A stretch of DNA of 64,000 nt from positions 46,253,428 through 46,317,427 of the forward strand of contig CM055098.1 in assembly GCA_029204225.1 (NCBI GenBank), in the 5' to 3' direction. The notes under the pieces are model-generated. The model had not been told where the DNA came from and did no database searches. It worked only from the letters and a program-made list of their open reading frames with translations. This document shows, piece after piece, positions 23,690-35,998 of this stretch (the stretch's first letter is position 1; the number at the start of each line of letters is the position of its first letter). Position numbers and translations under genes: made by a program. This DNA is from Diphasiastrum complanatum (Eukaryota; Streptophyta; Lycopodiopsida; Lycopodiales; Lycopodiaceae).

Positions 23690-25510
23690 CCTGAAAATTT
23701 TCGATTTTCAGATTTAACATGATGTTAAATCTAAGATGATGTTCATTTGATAGAGCTTTGCTGAAGTAATATGCTGCCTATAGTTATGTCCTGTAGTAAA
23801 CCAGAAAAATTTCCTTGCTTTGCACTTTCTCTCTAAGATAGTGATGTCGAATTTCGATATGCTTACTTCGGGAGTGGAAACTTGTTGGATTCAGAGATAG
23901 TGCAATGTCACTTTGATTGTCACAATAGAGGGTCGTTGGATGTGACTCCAAAATTTCGATATTTACAAGCCGGTTCCTCAGCCAAATTGTCTCCTTGCTA
24001 GCATTTGTAGCAGCTATGTATTCCAAATCCAGAGGTTGATTTTCTTGTGTCAATATCTCATGCCCAATCTGCATCTGTGTAGCCCTCCAAGATGTTGGCA
24101 GATTGGCTGTCTCCATAGCAGATGCTAAGGAATTTTGTAGCTTGGACATACTTCACGACTTTCATGAGAGCCTTCCAATGAACTGGACCTGGATTTGAAA
24201 GAAATTGGCTAAGAGACCTGATGGAATAAGCAAGGTCCGGTCAAGTGTAGAGCATAGCATACACCAATGATCCAATTATGGAATGAAATGGATACTGCTT
24301 CATTTCCTCCTTCTTTGACTCGGATTTTGGACATTGCTCCTTGACAGTTTCAAACCAGGGTCGAGTGGGAAGTGGCTTGGTTTGCACTCGGCCATTTCAT
24401 ATTTTTGCCAGCACATTGGTGAGGTATCTCTGTTGGCTGATGAAAATCTGCCTGCTGGGTCGAATTCAAAAAATCTGAATTCCGAGACGGTAATGTGCAA
24501 GACTCATATCTGTCATCTTGTATTCATGTGCTAACAAACATTTGGTATCCTTCAACAAATTTAAATTGTTACTAAACAGTAACGTGTCATTAACATAAAG
24601 AGTGATGATTATGAAGGGATTTAATACAGACTTAAAATAAACATTTGAGTCTGCCGAGTTTGGAATGAAACCATTATCGATTAGAAATGTATTAATATTC
24701 TGAAATTAGACCCTTGGAGACTATTTCAGGCCATATAGGGCTATATGAATTTTGCACACTAGGTGCTCCTTGCCTTTTAACTCATGTCCTTCTGGTTGGG
24801 ACATGTAGATCTCCTCTTCAATGGTGCCATTAAGGAATGTAGTTTGGACGTCCATCTAGTGAACTTCAAGGTCGGCTGCAACTGCATAGGAAAGAAGTAA
24901 ACAAATTGAAGCATGATTTACTATAGGACTGAAGGTTTTCGAATAATCCAGATCTGAGATCTGGGAGAAGCCTTTGGCTACCAATCTGGCCTTGTATCGA
25001 TTTATTTTACCTTCAGCATCATACTTCACTTTGAACAACCACTTGCATGTGGTCAGATTTCGATCCTTTGGCAGCTCAGTCGCAGTCCACATTTGATTTC
25101 AATTAGGGAATCAAATTCTACATCCATGGCAGCCTTCCTCTGGTCAACATCAGATGTTGACATAGCCTCATGAACTGCGTTTGGTTCTTGCACAAAATAG
25201 CAGGACGGATCATCCATGAATCTGGATGGAGGTTGTCTGAGTCGATTTGATCTTCTGGGTTGAATTTTGACCCTCTGATGCTGCTCGTTCTATTGAGGTT
25301 CTGACTTACTTTCAGAATCAATATCGATTTTCTGGTTTTCAACCCTAGGGTCGGACTTTGGATTTTCGATCCTTAAATGACTTTGAATTTTTGACCCTTG
25401 AATCGAATTTTAAATTTTCGACCCTCGGGTCGGATTTTTTTGAAGCTTTTCCCTTGTAATCGAAAAACTGATCCTCCAAGAAAATGACATCTCTGCTCGT
25501 GAATGCCTTC
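23690..25510 (-). pseudogene. Copia integrase end, reverse transcriptase and RNase H
   Basis: In minus-strand order: TSRDVIFLED (integrase C-terminus), RRSNRLRQPPSRF, then RT with CKWLFKVKYDAEGKINRYK, ARLVAKGFSQ, MDVQTTFLNGTIEEEIYM and YGLK. The catalytic box reads LYVNDTLLF, so the first Asp of YVDD is Asn. RNase H follows with YTDADWA, STSGF, YCDNQSDIALSLNP and RSKHIEIRHHYLREKV. About ten stops break the frame, so it is dead. It would have copied the element's RNA into DNA. Confidence 0.88.
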
Positions 25511-25934: not shown

Positions 25935-27080
25935 GTTCATCAGGTCCACGTGCACTAATAAAAGACCTTTCTTGCTAGCTAACAGACCAGGGATAGTAAG
26001 TGCACTACGATTGTAGGTGGTCACTTAGAGCCCAAAAAATTACATGTTGAATGAGTAGAAGCATTGTACCATCCACTAATTTTTGTCAACATTAACTATA
26101 ACTCAAGCTTCCTCTGAAAGATCTGGTGCTTATGCAGTCCACGCTACTAGTCTGCTTTGCATACGAACAAATTTATGAGAGATTTAACAAATCTTTGACT
26201 TGGTAATAGGTTTGAGAGAAACCTGTTGTCTTAATTTCTATCCTCTAATAAGAATTCACTAAGAGAGCGTAGCTAAAAAAACTGAAGGCTATCAACAAAA
26301 AAGATGAGCGCATGGGCAATAATATAATAAATTTTGATAAAAATCAATTGTTTGGGAATAAAGGAGAGCACCCACAGATTGAAGCCAATTCTCTAAGGAT
26401 AGTGCTCGAAATCGGAAGTCTATTATCAGACACTGTGGTGCTTTACTACACGTATCAATTACAACCAAATTTTTGTATACACCTGAATATAATATTATGT
26501 CAATGACGTTTTTTTCACTCTGATAGTTGATAAAGAAAAAAGGATCTAAGAACGTGAAATATGAAAGTATCATGAATGTTAAAAACGCATTATCCAATCC
26601 AATGTCGACTCTTATGAGCTTGCATGTACGACAGAGTAGAGTAGCATGACAGTCGATTCAAGTATGTCCTTACGATTCATTTGCTCATTGATTGATGATG
26701 AAGCCAATGAGGAATTTTGTTATGATAAAGGTTAAGGCATCACTAACCTTTACATAACCCCCTTGTGTGATACAATTTTGATACACACATAGCAGCATTA
26801 TAACCAGCTGTACACGTAGGTGCTTCGTGATGGCTCTTTTGCAGCGTCCACGATTACATTGCTTTTATAGAACAAAGTCCGGTGGTGTACATTTCTGTAC
26901 ATACCACAATATTATGTATTCTTGTACACAAATCTTGTTTCATATTTGAATTACGATCCTTTGTAAATGTATCATGCGTTCTTGTGATTATAAAATACAA
27001 CATTGATGGTTTAGCCACTTGTTTGCTGCATTGAATCAAGTTGCATATGACTCAAGTTTTGGTTTCAGATTATTTGCAGG
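25935..27080. other. AT-rich stretch without recognisable genes
   Basis: Only short frames are present, and I see no tandem repeat or structural RNA. The upstream part of the Helentron (replication initiator domain) would be expected here, but no HUH-type His-x-His motif or flanking Rep sequence could be read. Confidence 0.4.
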
Positions 27081-28995
27081 TTCGCAATTAAAATCTATAG
27101 AGGCATCTTCGAAATTTCTTATTTCCAGAGCTTATTTTAGATTTTAAATTTGCAAAGTTTGCAATGTCTTTATACGGATTCAACAGACATCCGATATGCA
27201 ACAAAAATTGAAAAATACCTTACTCGACCTGTTGACTATTCAAGCCTTTGTTTAGCAGAATTCATTGCAGAATATCGATTAACATCATCGCAAATATGCA
27301 AACGTCGAAAACCTCAAATAATTAGATACGTAAATTACAACAAACTTAAAGATCATGAAAATTTTTATCGTGAATATTTGTTTCTATATAAACCGTTCCA
27401 AGTATCAGAGTACATGATTCTAGAATCACATTCATCATACGAAGCTGCATACCATGCACACTATGACATAATACAGCACAACAAACAAAAACTACATTTC
27501 AATCAAGAACTTGACAAATAAGCACGCTGCAATTGGGAAGACTCCGAAAACGAATCATCAAACACTGAAACATCAAATCAAAATTTGAATACCTGTAACA
27601 TCAATAATTATGATCTACAAACTGAATTTCCAACTCATGCAGAATGCAACCCCAAAAAACAAATAGATACAACTACAAAATTGACATACAAAATCATGAA
27701 TCAAAATACATATTTTCACGAACTTGCAAAATTAAATCCCATGCAACGCCTGCTTTTTGACGACATAATGCACAAAAAACGAACAAACAACAAAAAACGA
27801 ATTCATCTATTTTTGACTGGAGGCACTGGTATAGGGAAAGCATTTATTTCACTACTTCTCGTACAAGGTTTACTGCGTCATTACTATAAAGATACCATAG
27901 ATGATATACAAAATCCAACAGGAAAAGCTATTTTTAATATTCATGGAACCACAATACATTCCGCATTACATTTACTTATAAACACAAAAGAATTGACTTT
28001 TCTTTCTGGTGACAAATTACAGACATATTGCTTGTAGTAATTGATGAAATTATTTTAATTGGTGAAAGAATTTTCCGATTCGCAGATCAACGACTTTGAA
28101 CGATCAAACATAGCCAATCGAATTTTTTGGTGGACTTGATGTTATAACTTGTGGTGATCTATTTCAAACAGCTCCAGTTCTAGACTCCTGGATCTTTAAA
28201 CAACTTGAAAATAGTTTGGTCACATTTCATAATTCATGTTGGCAAAACATGTTCACCTACTATGAACTTGAACAAGTAATGCGACAACAAGATATAGAAT
28301 TCATACATGTTGTAAATAGAATTAGAGCAACCAAGCACACATCTGCAGATATCGATTGGTTAAATAAACATTGTCATAAAACACCACCCTCTGTGCCAAA
28401 TTTACCATACATATTTTACAAAAACAACGATATACAACAACACAACAATGAAGTCTACCATACAATCACAAGTACAGAATTCTGTCTACAGGCAATTGAC
28501 ATTCTTAATGGTACTTGCAGTGCCACAATAGTAATACCAGAAGCACCATTAGTAACACAATCATTAGCAAAAACAATTTATGTAAAACAAGGCATGTTGG
28601 TAGAACTTTGTGCAACAAACATAGATATTGAAGATGGACTTGTTAATGGAGCAGATGGCATTTTTCAAACTACAACCATGACCTCTACATAAGACATTGT
28701 ATGGATAGAATTCCATAATTCTGAAATAGGTGCAAAAACTCGCCACAATAATCAATACATCTACAAAACCCACAATATAAACCAAACATGGACTCCAATA
28801 CATCGAATCACGAAAGAATTTCAAGTTGGCCATTCTATGTTTTATAAAGTTACAAGAGAACAATTTCCAATCAAAATAGCAATAGCAAGAACAATACACC
28901 GAGTCCAAGGTTTGACAGTAACCGAACTAGCATGCAACCCAAAACATGTTTCGAAACATGGTTTATTGTACACAGCACTCACCCGAGTTAAGAAA
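27081..28995 (+). pseudogene. Helentron Pif1-like helicase, broken
   Basis: The first frame carries the Helitron-type preamble LTRPVDYSSLCLAEFIAEYR and RRKPQIIRYVNYN. After one in-frame stop at 27519 it continues to the helicase proper. LNPMQRLLFDDIM is followed by Walker A LFLTGGTGIGKAF (usually GGAGTGKT). A frameshift near 28025 leads to Walker B LLVVIDEI, and then FGGLDVITCGDLFQTAPV and ELEQVMRQ. Motif VI appears as ARTIHRVQGLT and LLYTALTRVK. Disruptions are two stops (27519, 28690) and about three frameshifts, which is mild compared with the surrounding elements. Walker A has Ala-Phe in place of Lys-Thr-Phe, so the family's usual Thr is lost. It would have unwound DNA during rolling-circle transposition. 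Confidence 0.85.
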
Positions 28996-28999
28996 ACCT

Positions 29000-29736
29000 G
29001 AAAATTTATACATCACATCACCATTAACTTCAGAACACTTAAAAATTGATCCACATGTACAACAAGAAATGACACGTCTAAGAACAACAGCAAAATGGGA
29101 GTTCCAAATTCCCAATATTTGTACCTACACAGAAACGCATCTCATTATTCAATCACTAAACACTAGATCATTACCTAAATACAAACATAGTATTTTAAAT
29201 GATCATAACCTAATGACATCACACATATTATGTTTACAAGAAACCCAAACACGTTTTTATAAACCTTACTTTCCAACAATCTTTGAAGCCATTGACAATT
29301 ACGTGTTTGCAGGCTCAACAATATTGTATCGTAAAACTGAACACCTTAAACATGTACAATTATTCAATACATTGCACAGTGAAATTATTCATGCTACATT
29401 TGCTCATAAAGCCTACAATGTACATATTATTGCAATATATAGACAGCCAAATAGTACTATTTCCACGTTTATTGAACAACTAAATATAGTACTTAACAAT
29501 ATTTCCAAAAACGCACCCATTATTATATTAGGCGACATAAATATTAATGCATTAAACATAAACACTAATTTCCAAAAACTTGAATCAGTTATGCGTGAAC
29601 ATAATATACAACTATCCTTTCAATAAGTAACAACTATATATGGCACCCAATTAGATCATGTTTGGACAAACATAGAAAACCCCAAAATTTTATCTGGAAG
29701 TACATATGCTTGTTGGTCAGATCATTCACCAAGATA
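29000..29736 (+). pseudogene. Helentron AP-endonuclease-like (EEP) domain
   Basis: The frame from 28946 carries the helicase end (ENLYITSPL) into an EEP fold: QSLNTRSLPKYK, HILCLQET, IIAIYRQPNS, IIILGDININA, then after a stop at 29624 LDHVWTN and WSDHSP. These correspond to the Asn, Glu, Tyr/Arg, Asp-x-Asn, Asp-His and Ser-Asp-His motifs of this nuclease family. All key residues are still visible, with only one internal stop. In Helentrons this domain is encoded at the C-terminus of the Rep/helicase protein, and its role in transposition is not settled. A LINE endonuclease is the alternative, but no RT follows and the helicase runs directly into it. Confidence 0.8.
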
Positions 29737-30249
29737 ATACACAATGGAAAACACACTATGGAGCAACCACCCAACCAAGTAGAAGCAACCAAACAACTCT
29801 AGAAGCTTCACCCCCAAGCCAAGGAACAAGAAGCATGAATGTAGAGTGAAACCCTGGCAATGAATCCATGATCACAATGAGAAACAGGACGAGTTTGGCC
29901 TCAATATATAGAGCCAAAAGCAACCTGGGCACATAGCCATGCATAGCCCTAAGTTCCCTATACATAGATTCACCTAGAATAGAGTCCTAAGCATGGACCA
30001 ACTATTCATAGAATTGCTATTGATAACTTTTCACATGCATACACTGTCTCATACCTTGTCTAAACTCCATTTAGTGTGTTCTGGGCCTCACAAGAATATT
30101 AATTACTTTCGGGTCACATCCACTATGACGTGGCATAACTAACAGCTTGATTTACTAGAATACCGCGTGTATCCAAGACTAGGAGTATACTGAATCCTAC
30201 TTACTGGCCATGGACATAATAGTTTAGGTCTAAAAATATTTATATTTTT
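29737..30249. other. Non-coding stretch after the Helentron remnant
   Basis: No frame of note. A minus-strand TATA-like 'ctatatattgagg' near 29905 suggests an LTR-type promoter in the reverse direction, but no LTR boundary or second copy is seen. Confidence 0.35.
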
Positions 30250-31212
30250 GATATCTTTGACGATCAAGAGAAAGGTAAGCAAGTGGAAGCGACTCGCTTT
30301 GCTTTACTCACATGTTTTGGAGAATCTTCTTGTGTAGATGATGCTATGCAAGTGGATATGGGTTCTCATGGTTTTCATGCTGGAAAATCAACTATTGGAT
30401 CTGGAAAAGAGGTCTTAGTCAATGGCTTTGATGGTCAAGAGGAAGATCAAGAGGTTGGTCTGAAAGGACTTCAACAACACAAAAGGAAAAGTGGCAATTT
30501 GGAACTAGTCAAGAGCATCAAAGGAAGGATATTTGGCAAAGATGTTATTAATATGTTTTTGCAGGTGTTTGAAGACTCAAGTAAGGTCAAACGAGCAGCA
30601 AGGAAGTGTTGTTTAGTTTACTTGTTTTATCTCATGTTTGAGCTATTTCATGTGGATGTGTGCAAATTGTCAAGATGTGGTAAAACTAGCTATATTGTCT
30701 TGCAATATCTTATTGTTGGAGTTGTACTAGCATTCTTGGTTGATTTTGCTGATAGAAATGAAGCTATTGGAGGTTCATTATGCACTAATTCATGGCCAAG
30801 TCATTAAGTGTTGATGATATCTTGTGGCAAGATGGCAATGGAGGCTCCTTCATGGAGTTTTATGGTGGAGACATATCAAGAAAGGACAAAGTTGGAGGAG
30901 AGAAGCAAGTAAATGGTCATCACTCACATTTATCGTTTGGTTGCTATAATTTTTCAGAGAGTTCAAAGTTTGAAACATGAAGGAATCATCTCATTCACAT
31001 TCTATTTGGTTCTTCATGTTCTAGTTATATCTTGATGTGTAAAATTGATGTAAAAAATAGTGAAGCATCCAATTTGGACACTATTATCTATATCCATTAT
31101 GGAAAATACTTTACAACATTAGAAAGGAGATCTATACTTAGGATGGAGATCATTCTAAAGTTGGATCAAAGTAGTATGGTTAAAACTATGCCAAAACTAG
31201 TTGAAGAGGGAG
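30250..31212 (+). pseudogene. Second copy of the RT-less copia, plus orientation
   Basis: The plus strand repeats the order of 8930-7824 in inverted orientation: GESSCVDDAMQVD (compare GGSSCVHGAMQVD), STIGSGK, ELVKSIKGRIFGKDVINMF, EDSSKVK and HVDVCKLSRCGK. It ends with KLDQSSMVKT joined to MPKLVEEGV, so the RSKHIEIQ block of RNase H is deleted. It runs into the polypurine tract GAAGAGGGAG and an LTR start. The two copies share the same replacement of RT, so the event predates at least one duplication or transposition. Confidence 0.75.
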
Positions 31213-31384
31213 TGTGAGAGATTTCAACCAGTTTAGTCATATTTTGGTAAATTGTCAATGGAGGCCAAAACTTATTTTAGACATAGATAAACTGTTTGAA
31301 GTTACATTAGTTTAAAATACATTCAATAAACACTTTTTGAAAGTGTGGGAAAGTTGGTAGTCAAGTTTGAGAGAGATTCAAATT
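31213..31384 (+). repeat. Truncated copia 3' LTR
   Basis: TGTGAGAGATTTCAACC follows the purine tract directly. The sequence aligns with the beginning of the minus-strand LTR at 6908, including 'cattcaataaacac' and 'tcaagtttgagagag'. It is cut after about 172 bp, where a proline-rich frame begins. Confidence 0.8.
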
Positions 31385-31385
31385 A

Positions 31386-32280
31386 ACCTGCCTCACCTAC
31401 ACCACCCACGAAGAAGTATAAGGGTAAGACAGTTAGCACAGATGACAACATCTCCCCTGATATCTTATCCAGTGATATAGGGGTATAGTATGTTGAGGTT
31501 GAAATCCTCTTAGGCCCCACAGGAGGTTTTGGTGCAACAAGAGACCCTACTTCAACATGCCCAACAAAGAAGACAAGCAGTAGCAGTAGCAGGCAGCTCT
31601 TTGGATGCAGGCACTTTCGGATCAGGTTCATTAGGCGTGGTCCTGCCAACTCAGGTAACTTCAGTTGTTCAAGTATCGTCGCCTACTAACACAATTCTCC
31701 TTCCACCACTACCCCCACCATTTACTGCCACATCCACCCCTTCATTTACATTTGACACGGGCTTCGATTCCACTATCCCACGAAAGCCCTCACATGTACA
31801 TTCTTCCACCCTACTTGACTCTATGATCAATGTAGACGATTTTGCATTACAATTACTAGCACAAACCACCATTGTCATAACCAATCCAGTCCGCTCTTCT
31901 CCTACAAAAACTCAATCACCTCCATGCTCACCTCCTTCAAAACCCCAATCACCTCCACCTACATCTCCTCTCCTACCTCAATCACCTCCACCTTCATTTT
32001 TTCACACTACATCTTCTCCACCAATTCCAGATCTTCTTCCATTCAAACCCATGCCCTACCCAAACTATACTCCCCCACTTCTTGACATTGGACCTTGGGA
32101 GCAATTACCACTAACAGCCTAAAAAGTACTTTGGTTGGTGAACGAGCTCCAGTACAACATCTTTGGTGTTTTAGGAGGTCAACACACAATGAGGCAATTC
32201 GACGATGGAGCCCTTGCAAATCTTTAGAAGGAGAAGGCAAGGTTGGAGGCAGAATTCAATCAACAATAGCAGCAAATCCA
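31386..32280 (+). pseudogene. Proline-rich ORF with a short coiled-coil tail, unassigned
   Basis: The plus strand starts SPTPPTKKYKGKTVSTDD, has stops near 31480, and continues in the frame 31529-32122 (197 codons). That frame has many Pro-Pro pairs and SPP repeats (for example PPCSPPSKPQSPPP). Beyond its stop another frame reads RQFDDGALANL, KEKARLEAEFNQ, a charged heptad-like segment. This looks like the N-terminal part of a large retroelement ORF or a plant gag-like protein, but no domain was recognised. Both ends abut copia fragments. Confidence 0.4.
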
Positions 32281-32284
32281 AAAT

Positions 32285-32473
32285 TTGAACGTTGCACCTC
32301 TTGATGTATTTGGCTTTTTCTTGAGGATGAATAGGTTCACCCTCCTTACCGTTTACAATTTCCATCAGACCTTGCATGATCATGATGGATTCCATTCTAA
32401 CTTTCCATATGGAATAGTTAGTTTTGTTGAGCCTTTCATTAGTATCCAAAAGATATGCATTTATAGATGCCAT
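32285..32473 (-). pseudogene. Copia gag N-terminal fragment
   Basis: The minus-strand frame opens MASINAYLLDTNERLNKTN then YSIWKVRMESIMIM, followed by GLMEIVNGKEGEP, a typical DUF4219/UBN2 gag start. It matches the fragment at 1-414 in pattern. It is cut after about 60 residues. 32474-32915 contains nothing I can assign. Confidence 0.8.
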
Positions 32474-32915
32474 CTAGTCTCCTAATCAAGGACTTGACAC
32501 AAATGAAGGTTACTTCTATTGATTTGATTGAAGGTCTACCTTATCCCACTTCTTAGGGACCTGAAAAGATCAGTAATAGACTTTCTATAGAGATCTAAGA
32601 ATGATCTCTAACAAAATCAAATCATAGAATACTAGAAACAATGCACTTGCTTGATTGAAGTAGACAATACTAGTAGAATTGCCCCTCTTTCTATAAAGAA
32701 CATTAAAGCTTCCAAATGATCTGATCAAGAGTGAATTTCAGCAACCTAATATACTTCCAAAATCACTTGTAAAATATCTAAATGGAACTTAATGAGGATG
32801 CAACACAATCTACTATCCAATCACAAGCAAAAAATGATCAAAATTGATGAAAAATTGATCTAATTTGGTGCATAAGTCAAGCAATGGTTGGACTGAACCT
32901 AAATCACTTTAGGAG

Positions 32916-33420
32916 GTGCCTACTACACCCTCCGGGAAGACATTCAAAAGCTTTTTGATGCTAGTTTCATTTATGAAATCGAACGTATTGCCAATTGTGG
33001 TGGTACTAAAGAAAAATAATAAACTCTGTATCTGCTTGGATTTAAAGAAACTCAATGACAAAACAAAGAAAGATCACTTTTCGTTACCTCTAACCACACA
33101 AATCCTCAAAGATATGGCAGAAGCAAAAGCTTTTAGCTTTCTAGATTGTTTTAGTGGGTATTTCTTAGTCCATATTGCTCCTGAAGATCGTCAGAAAACG
33201 GCGTTTATTACAAAGTTTGACACCTTCTCGTATATAGTTATGCCATTCGGTCTATGCCATGACCCATCGACATTCCAAAGGGTAATGCAACACACTTTCA
33301 AGGATATTTTACACAAGAATTAAGAGATTTATCTTGATGATCTTGGTGTACATTCATCTGAAGATAAGCATCTTGATTCCCTTGAACAAGTATTCATTCG
33401 TTGTTGAAGGTTCGGAAATT
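32916..33420 (+). pseudogene. Gypsy reverse transcriptase, broken
   Basis: The frame reads LPIVVVLKKNNKLCICLDLK then LNDKTKKDHFSLP, FSFLDCFSGYF, KTAFITKFDTFSYIVMPFGL, STFQRVMQHTFKDILHKN, and after a stop EIYLDDLGVHS. These are the ordered motifs of Ty3/gypsy RT, with the catalytic YLDD present. The position usually occupied by the first catalytic Asp reads FLDCFSGYF. It is the same family as 11260-12410. Confidence 0.88.
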
Positions 33421-33985
33421 CATTGAATTTCAAAAAGTGTCAGATCTAGGTTACCCATGGTGTGGTACTAGGCCATATCATTTCTCAAAATGGTATAGCC
33501 ACTGATCCTAAAAAGATCAGAGTGATTCTTGAAATGCCGCTACCACAGTGAAAGAAATTTATGTTTTTTTAGGCCACACATGTTACTATCAAATCTTTAT
33601 AATACACTACGGGGATAAGGCAAGGTTAGTATATCAAATCATTACCGATCCAAAGTGGACAGAAGAACGGATTAAAGCCTTTGAAAACCTCAAACAGGCT
33701 TTAGTCACCGTGCCAATTCTTCGTGTGCCTGATTACAACAAGTTCCATGTGCATACGGACGCTAGTAATATGGCATTGGCCCTGTTTAAATGCAACTCGG
33801 AGAATTAGGAAAGGATTTCCCAATCTGTTTCCTAAGTCGTCAGCTAGTTCCAACTGAGGTTAATTATTCCACAATTGATAGAGAAGCATTAGCAATGGTC
33901 TATGTGGTTCAACAATTTTGTCATTATTTGCTAGGCTCTTTGTTTTTCATACCGACCATCACGCTCTCATGTATCTACTAAATAA
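33421..33985 (+). pseudogene. Gypsy RT connection and RNase H
   Basis: Following RT, the frames contain VVLGHIISQNGIATDP, WTEERIKAFENLKQALVTVP, then HVHTDASNMALAL and YSTIDREALAMVYVVQQFCH. These are the RT thumb/connection and the RNase H motifs (HTDAS, DREALA). At least three frame changes or stops occur. Integrase is missing after this point and the sequence goes to an LTR-like segment at about 34060. Confidence 0.85.
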
Positions 33986-34872: not shown

Positions 34873-35998
34873 AATGGTGGAGTCGAATTTTGAGCACAAT
34901 GAAGGGACCCTAGAAATGCCAAAGAGCATCAGTTTGACAAAGTGCGGTGATGATACCTATGAGAATTTTGACAACAAGCAGCTAACCTTTCGGATTGATA
35001 TGCCAAACTTTCAGCTATTTGTATATTTGGCTGGTAGCAACCTTAGTGCCTTTGGATTTCCAAGCGACCATAAAGAAAAAGCCCAAAAAGTTGACAGATA
35101 TGTTACAGCAGCCTTATGCCAAGTTCTTGGATACATCTATGGATAATTGGAAAACAAAGATAGATTCTGTTGGAGGCCATCCCCTGCAAAGAATTGGTAG
35201 TTGCATGTGCATATATCACTAAATATACAGACCGAAGAAGGGCACACTTAATGAGGATTCGCCTGCAGATCTTTGTCATGTTGGGTAAATCATACGGGGG
35301 CTAGCAAAATATGTACAACTGGGCTAACATCATCTCCAGAAGTTTGATAAGTGCATTGATGAAAAGAACCCCGATAACAACTTGGTTTGCATATTCTTTG
35401 ACATAGCCAAGAGTCAAGCCCAGTTGGACTTAAAGACTGTGTTGACCCCAAGTTGACAGATATGTTACAGCAGCCCTATGCCAAGTTCTTGGATACATCT
35501 ATGGATAAATGGAAAACAAAGATAGATTCTGTTGGAGGCCATCGCCTGCAAAGAATTGGTAGTTGCATGTGCATATATCACTAGATATACAGACCGAAGA
35601 AGGACACACTTAATGAGGATTCGCCTGCAGATCTTTGTCATGTTGGGTAAATCATACGGGGGCCAGCAAAATATGTACAACTGGGCAGACATCATCTCCA
35701 AAAGTTTGATAAGTGCATTGATGAAAAGAACCCCGATAACAATTTGGTTTGCATATTCTTTGACATAGCCAAGAGTCAAGCCCAGTTGGACTTAAAGACT
35801 GTGTTGACCCCAAGGGATGCTACTGCTAGCCAAGGTTACAAAGCTGCCATAGCCTCTCCGTCAGGTACACCTTCAAGACAAGCTTCTGCTGTGTCACATG
35901 AACTAAGGACAAAGAACTGCCATGAAAGATCTTCTCCCCTAACATCCGGTCTTTCTGACACCGCACCAGTGGCAAAGAAGCAAAGAAGGAAGAGTTAG
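34873..35998 (+). pseudogene. Unassigned decayed ORF with an internal 362-bp duplication
   Basis: The first frame opens MVESNFEHNEGTLEMPKSIS. Later frames give ELVVACAYITRYTDRRRTHL, IRLQIFVMLGKSYGG and NMYNWADIISKSL, and a basic C-terminus SDTAPVAKKQRRKS that looks like a nuclear localisation signal. A frameshift separates these parts in both duplicate halves. The position after the gypsy non-coding repeat suggests a gag-like or captured ORF. I do not recognise the family. Confidence 0.35.
35091..35814 (+). repeat. Tandem direct duplication, two 362-bp units
   Basis: Units 35091-35452 and 35453-35814 are nearly identical, starting TTGACAGATATGTTACAGCA and ending TTGACCCCAAG. A handful of substitutions separates them, so the duplication is much younger than the surrounding decay. 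The junction shares the short word 'aag'. Confidence 0.92.

Follow-up and report, generated by a model that had tools for sequence, protein, structure and literature searches.

Helentrons are described, mainly from animals, as elements that encode an HUH Rep nuclease, a Pif1 helicase and a C-terminal AP-type endonuclease, carry subterminal inverted repeats, have TT on the 5' side and produce no target duplication (available portion of PMC4067079). The same portion gives a serine in Rep motif 2 as diagnostic of Helentrons and a leucine as diagnostic of Helitrons, with the reservation that the diagnostic Rep positions serve "in most cases". It assigns TC...CTRR ends and A/T insertion to canonical Helitrons, and Helitron2 elements in the narrow sense appear in it without an endonuclease. 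For Helitron2, including Helitron-5_SMo and the Chlamydomonas elements Helitron-1_CRe and Helitron-2_CRe, the accessible part of PMC3627910 reports a 5' hairpin, a T before the 5' end and asymmetric inverted repeats, the 3' copy lying ~20-30 nt from the end. Endonuclease-bearing Helentrons have been presented as elements of animals and of certain fungi (PMC6431247, accessible part). Helentron-Rep-like sequences were also recorded in green and red algae and in oomycetes (PMC4067079, same portion), and the accessible part of PMC5148889 reports none of the Helentron type among the fungal proteins searched. Plant matches known in 2014 were few, lay on short contigs and were indistinguishable from contamination, as far as the available portion of PMC4067079 goes. 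The titles found by a literature search of partial coverage named no Helentrons in a lycophyte.

The window analyzed here is a stretch of 64,000 nucleotides of the 1.745-Gb Diphasiastrum complanatum assembly (C7:46253428-46317427), and the fragment under study lies within it at C7:46.28 Mb. The loci compared with it are numbered L, and all of them belong to this assembly except L020, which comes from IMG/VR. The preliminary description had pointed to gymnosperm genomes, with conifers as the point of comparison. Such a host was rejected: the genome size is 1.745 Gb, and the best PDB matches of the D. complanatum chalcone synthase are 3awj (587 bits) and 6dx8 (583 bits), which we take to be from Huperzia serrata and Selaginella, respectively; the next match outside the close relatives of this pair scores 538 bits.

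Comparison with other copies by blastn revealed that the fragment is a plus-strand member of one Helentron family, here called family A, truncated at both ends and extending from 27153 to 29741. A Helentron-type segment had been proposed at 27081-29736; the segment is indeed present, and its bounds are replaced by those of the homology. Alignments start at 27153 (L010 and L012), 27158 (L019), 27177 (L018) and 27220 (L011), and all six copies that reach the 3' side (L010, L011, L012, L013, L018 and L019) align up to 29741. The same six copies have a further 84 to 101 bp in common, up to a shared end, which the window copy does not have. The 5' break of the window copy at 27153 falls between Rep and helicase, and the 3' break falls at the end of the endonuclease. 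The window copy has neither the element ends nor the catalytic part of Rep, and its membership is established through homology to fuller copies.

The motifs quoted in the preliminary description are all present on the plus strand, in reading frames at 27141-29626, and the proposed order, in which a Pif1 helicase leads into an endonuclease of the AP (exo/endo/phosphatase) type, was borne out by Pfam domains in pieces of the window and in relatives. The first part of the fragment (27153-27521) corresponds in tblastn to the region between Rep and helicase and has a nonsense codon at its end; within it, 27153-27452 is 68% identical to an ORF of L019, compared with 37% for the Rep ORF of L016. The N-terminal part of the helicase (27522-28126) carries an altered Walker A motif, GGTGIGKAF, compared with GGAGTGKTF in L015 and L016, and VIDEI in another frame. 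The C-terminal part (28114-29001) contains CGDLFQTAPV, IHRVQGLT and TALTRVK and one nonsense codon. The endonuclease (28985-29741), which sits in a frame separate from that of the helicase, shows LNTRSL, LQET, YRQP, GDININ, LDHVW and SDH. Pfam analysis of five pieces of the window assigned PIF1 to the N-terminal helicase part at E = 5.5e-5 (23.3 bits, under the cut-off of 25.9) and PIF1 to the C-terminal part at E = 4.2e-6 (27.0 bits, above the cut-off); UvrD_C_2 (E = 6.5e-4, C-terminal helicase part), Exo_endo_phos_2 (E = 4e-5) and Exo_endo_phos (E = 0.003) all fell under their cut-offs. That only one of the five scores exceeds its cut-off is as expected, because the frames are broken. In better-preserved relatives these domains score above their cut-offs (PIF1 with E = 3.6e-30 in L016, Exo_endo_phos with E = 2.1e-11 in L014), which indicates that the domains in the window are not chance matches.

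Reading the fragment against its relatives, we counted five nonsense codons and three changes of frame over 2.6 kb, in agreement with its earlier description as a remnant. Its A-richness was likewise confirmed, at 39.8% A compared with 30.8% and 31.1% in the adjoining 5-kb stretches; among 123 sliding windows, the two with the most A overlap the fragment. A second occurrence of the fragment together with its flanks (26859-32289) was found by blastn at C7:37.04 Mb (L009), with 98.7 to 99.1% identity and with part of the stretch inverted. In the endonuclease part, the window copy and L009 differ by a dS of 0.007 and a dN of 0.020 and show no sign of constraint, as expected if the duplication took place after the death of the element. 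Other pairs gave dN/dS values of 0.49 to 0.79 within families A and B and of 0.34 in two comparisons with the more distant L013; these values, taken without a formal test, hint at past constraint on the sequences. Remnants of retrotransposons with RVT_2 (copia-type) and with RVT_1 and RNase H domains flank the fragment, at 24856-25098 on the minus strand and at 32913-33323 and 33533-33808 on the plus strand. A 365-bp tandem direct repeat with 97% identity is located at 35088-35814 of the window.

Searches of the assembly showed that the genome holds many relatives, some of them nearly complete; no intact full-length copy was found among those characterized. A 192-aa helicase piece (28114-28692) has at least 150 matches, the window copy included (the best 150 of 750 candidates were scored), and a 231-aa endonuclease piece has at least 155, again with the window copy (150 of 1151 candidates scored). 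For the helicase piece at 27522-28037, 151 matches were listed. Helicase and endonuclease matches together touch each of the contigs C1 to C23 and many small contigs. The two domains are adjacent in many copies, which were not counted (for example, at C8:12369867 and C8:12370728). Three lineages were distinguished: family A, to which the window copy belongs; the lineage of L017; and family B (L014, L015, L016 and L021), for which a Rep piece gave at least 98 matches (86 of 1213 candidates scored). At the protein level, identity to the piece from the window is about 52% for L017 and 36 to 44% for family B (about 40%) and others. Among the 150 helicase matches listed, identity is at least 60% in 47, 45 to 59% in 70 and lower in 33, a spread which indicates that several lineages coexist. 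Local clusters were also observed, with 15 helicase-fragment matches in 1.6 Mb at C3:54.56-56.14 Mb and, among the matches listed, 10 endonuclease matches in 0.8 Mb at C22:3.03-3.84 Mb. L013 carries the endonuclease twice, in tandem.

The coding capacity missing from the window copy was read from the fuller relatives. Family B and L017 encode DUF6570 and, in family B, Helitron_like_N; PIF1 and Exo_endo_phos come next. The HUH Rep was detected as Helitron_like_N with E = 4.2e-17 (L014), 1.3e-19 (L016) and 4.7e-21 (L021), all from family B, and PIF1 and Exo_endo_phos share a single open frame of 752 aa in L015 and 702 aa in L016. Rep motif 2 contains the serine of Helentrons: it reads FVTEFQHRGSEHDH (RGSEHDH) in L014 and L016, FVTKFQHRGSQHDH (RGSQHDH) in L017 and GGSEHDH in L021, the residue behind the serine being E or Q and not P. 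In contrast to described Helentrons, the F/Y-x-R signature before motif 2, the second Rep diagnostic of PMC4067079, is absent, with AFVTEFQ in L014 and L016 and FFVTKFQ in L017 at this position. Neither the Rep motif 2 nor the 5' end of family A was found in the 13 loci searched. The helicase-endonuclease frame of L016 matched Pif1 structures, presumably bacterial and yeast, with a best E value of 1.1e-31 and Helraiser with 6.9e-15. The family B endonuclease was modeled with AlphaFold, and the closest folds include TDP2, APE1 and the LINE-1 endonuclease; the model is of low confidence (pLDDT 55), and these fold matches therefore serve as support only. An OTU protease, found in described Helentrons, was not detected by Pfam (E <= 0.1 and E <= 1) in 13 ORFs of related loci, one of which is a canonical Helitron. 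Family B also has a conserved 5' ORF on the minus strand (L014 8360-9139, 260 aa; L022 2294-2797). By eye, the 260-aa product resembles an RPA or OB-fold protein, a reading that was set aside given no Pfam support and a model pLDDT of 31.5; an RPA ORF belongs, like the OTU protease, to the accessory set of described Helentrons.

The ends were defined for family B. The 5' end is GGCCCTGCCCTTGTTGGGCAGGG, which folds as an 8-bp hairpin, and the 3' end is GCAGGGCC, 20-odd bases, CACCTTGTT. The sequences GGCCCTGC (5') and GCAGGGCC (3') are inverted repeats, the 3' one being located 28 nt before the 3' end, within the distance in print for Helitron2, with which these elements also share the 5' hairpin, the T before the 5' end and the asymmetry of the repeats. 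Family A and L017 share an end in CTTGTT as well as the 3' inverted repeat, and of the two repeat copies only the 3' one was seen in them. The 5' end of family A is predicted to be a hairpin starting GGCCCTGCC. When up to one mismatch is allowed, the pattern of the family B 5' end has 57 occurrences, and that of the family A 3' end has 165 when up to two are allowed; the reversed-pattern control gave 0 in both cases. Seven of the 57 family B matches start TGGCCTGCCC and may belong to another family. Near the family A 3' end, a GTGG-CTTG-CCAC hairpin was recognized by eye in L011, L012, L013 and L019; it is reduced to 3 bp in L018 and broken off in L010. The candidate family B hairpin, ATCG-CATC-CGAT, keeps its 4-bp stem in three of the seven 3' ends read. 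Minimum-energy folds of the 3' ends of both families prefer other pairings, and the family B 3' hairpin, in which the elements would agree with described Helentrons, is doubtful.

All 21 family B 5' flanks read, out of 57, have TT before the 5' end. Sixteen of these flanks are distinct; in L024 the flank consists of another copy's 3' end, and a few flanks resemble the interior of other Helentrons. On the 3' side, the flank begins with T in 18 of the 20 family A copies read (of 165) and in three of six family B copies (L014, L021 and L032), with A in L015, L016 and L033; the background frequency of T in the loci examined is 0.31. For the family B copy of 8.9 kb in L014 (C1:42559331-42568261), two paralogous empty sites were identified, and they reveal no target duplication. 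Its joined flanks match across the junction at C11:37684520-37684759 with 93% identity and at C2:41678881-41679119 with 82%, the alignments containing only 1-nt gaps, one of them beside the junction in the C11 match. Weaker matches of the L014 flanks were also listed, at 70 to 72% over part or most of the query, two of them on one flank only. The search covered this one of three copies considered; the C23 copy was left out with another Helentron end directly after it, and the C8 copy with a 3' flank in common with L016. A head-to-tail arrangement was observed in L024 at about 1160-1220 (C2:24.09 Mb), where the 3' end of one copy is followed immediately by the start of a family B copy, as would be expected of rolling-circle products or of self-insertion.

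These results indicate with high confidence that the segment is a dead, doubly truncated Helentron, endonuclease-bearing and of the Helitron2 type, resident in a plant nuclear genome that is very probably that of a lycophyte. The relatives with Rep, Pif1 and endonuclease, the element ends and the empty sites uphold the earlier proposal of a Helentron-type element in a plant genome. The elements agree with Helentrons in the order of the three domains, the motif 2 serine, the subterminal inverted repeats, the TT and, in one copy, the lack of target duplication, and differ from Helitron2 in the narrow sense in having an endonuclease. The live element encoded all three proteins or domains: the HUH Rep, the Pif1 helicase and the AP-type endonuclease. 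By analogy with characterized Helitrons and with the proposal made for Helentrons in PMC4067079 (available portion), Rep would nick and hold one strand at the 5' end of the element, the helicase would peel the nicked strand off and the endonuclease would nick the T-rich target. Replication would halt near the 3' inverted repeat and hairpin, and the element would be pasted in without target duplication. While each of these catalytic steps is drawn from analogy, the domain order, the end sequences, the T-rich 5' target side and the empty sites of one copy of a related family were observed. The window copy is now incapable of any transposition step.

How such elements came to reside in a lycophyte is a separate matter. 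They may represent an old resident clade of endonuclease-bearing Helentrons in lycophytes, or perhaps in seed-free plants, whose Rep-helicase-endonuclease fusion would be older than the plant-animal split or would have passed between kingdoms in deep time; we put this forward tentatively. A crossing in deep time could have come, for example, from animals or mycorrhizal fungi.

Transfer from an animal was raised as a possible inference in the preliminary description. The version considered here, in which the element entered the lycophyte lineage horizontally from an animal or a fungus and then multiplied, draws on the reported restriction of endonuclease-bearing Helentrons to animals and certain fungi and on the scarcity of plant matches in 2014, those being inseparable from contamination. 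Against it stand the lineage diversity seen in the 150 helicase matches listed, together with the common 3' design, for which one recent transfer is not enough, and the Helitron2-type ends in print for Helitron-5_SMo (PMC3627910, accessible part). The element code SMo we take to stand for Selaginella moellendorffii, so that this host is probably another lycophyte. Transfer in this form is unlikely; the simple animal-origin version is not favored, and a repeated or ancient transfer is possible. Searches of virus and prokaryote collections yielded no confirmed relative: with alignment A1, 54 stretches fitted the pattern in IMG/VR and 98 in GTDB contigs, none of them confirmed, and a single 990-aa protein gave no pattern match in IMG/VR. 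The sole find of a degenerate motif scan of IMG/VR (L020) was rejected, its long frames being phage-like by eye. These negatives say little on transfer, because the collections are not animal genomes.

Local capture of an endonuclease by a canonical plant Helitron is very improbable, even though plant Helitrons are generally known to capture gene fragments and Helitron_like_N is abundant in this genome (at least 150 matches scored, 150 of 1332 candidates). Of these, L027 and L028 were read and proved to be canonical, with the Rep motif 2 RGLPHAH that is also found in the bat element Helraiser; the helicase of L027 was not found within the sequence piece examined. Another Helitron_like_N match, at C19:33997427-33997933, falls within an open frame given as 3591 aa, which may be an artifact produced by masked sequence. 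Canonical Helitrons, including Helraiser (PDB 7lcc), share the rolling-circle plan of Rep and Pif1 with the elements described here. However, L027 (1173-aa query) matches Helraiser with E = 3.2e-167 over 860 residues, whereas the family B Rep piece, a shorter query of 290 aa, reaches only E = 0.075 and is not detectably close. The serine in place of leucine in motif 2, the 5' hairpin and the TT at the 5' side likewise argue against capture. The canonical traits (5'-TC, CTRR-3', A/T insertion and the motif 2 leucine) were absent from family B and L017 and, at the 3' end, from family A. The difference in motif 2 and the Helraiser E values show that the two classes are distinct, and the claim that the segment is not of the usual plant Helitron type holds, canonical Helitrons coexisting with it in one genome.

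Contamination of the assembly by animal DNA, which the preliminary description had named as a way in which its reading could fail, was a real concern for the earlier short, low-copy plant matches (PMC4067079, available portion); it is exceedingly improbable here, where the window copy is placed 46 Mb along a contig of 75 Mb, matches occur on each of C1 to C23 and the flanks of one copy recur empty elsewhere in the genome. That a fragment of a host Pif1 gene and the endonuclease of a LINE came to lie side by side by chance is hardly credible either, since the two domain types, which are generally known to occur singly in plants, are adjacent in many copies and in one frame in L015 and L016, and six copies have the same end.

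The elements are thus of a known type in a poorly documented host, and they represent Helentrons anchored in a land plant. The more than 100 anchored matches, the ends in a related family and the empty sites of one copy largely remove the doubt about contamination for one vascular plant. Helentrons are thereby documented in a land plant; transfer from an animal is not thereby shown. The end sequences should help to annotate elements that may escape Helitron finders relying on TC/CTRR ends, as noted for Helitron2 in the accessible part of PMC3627910. If the elements do form an old resident clade, their reported confinement to animals and some fungi would stem from sampling or from loss in seed plants. 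Genomes of lycophytes, ferns and mosses now allow the age and route of the Rep-helicase-endonuclease fusion to be tested.
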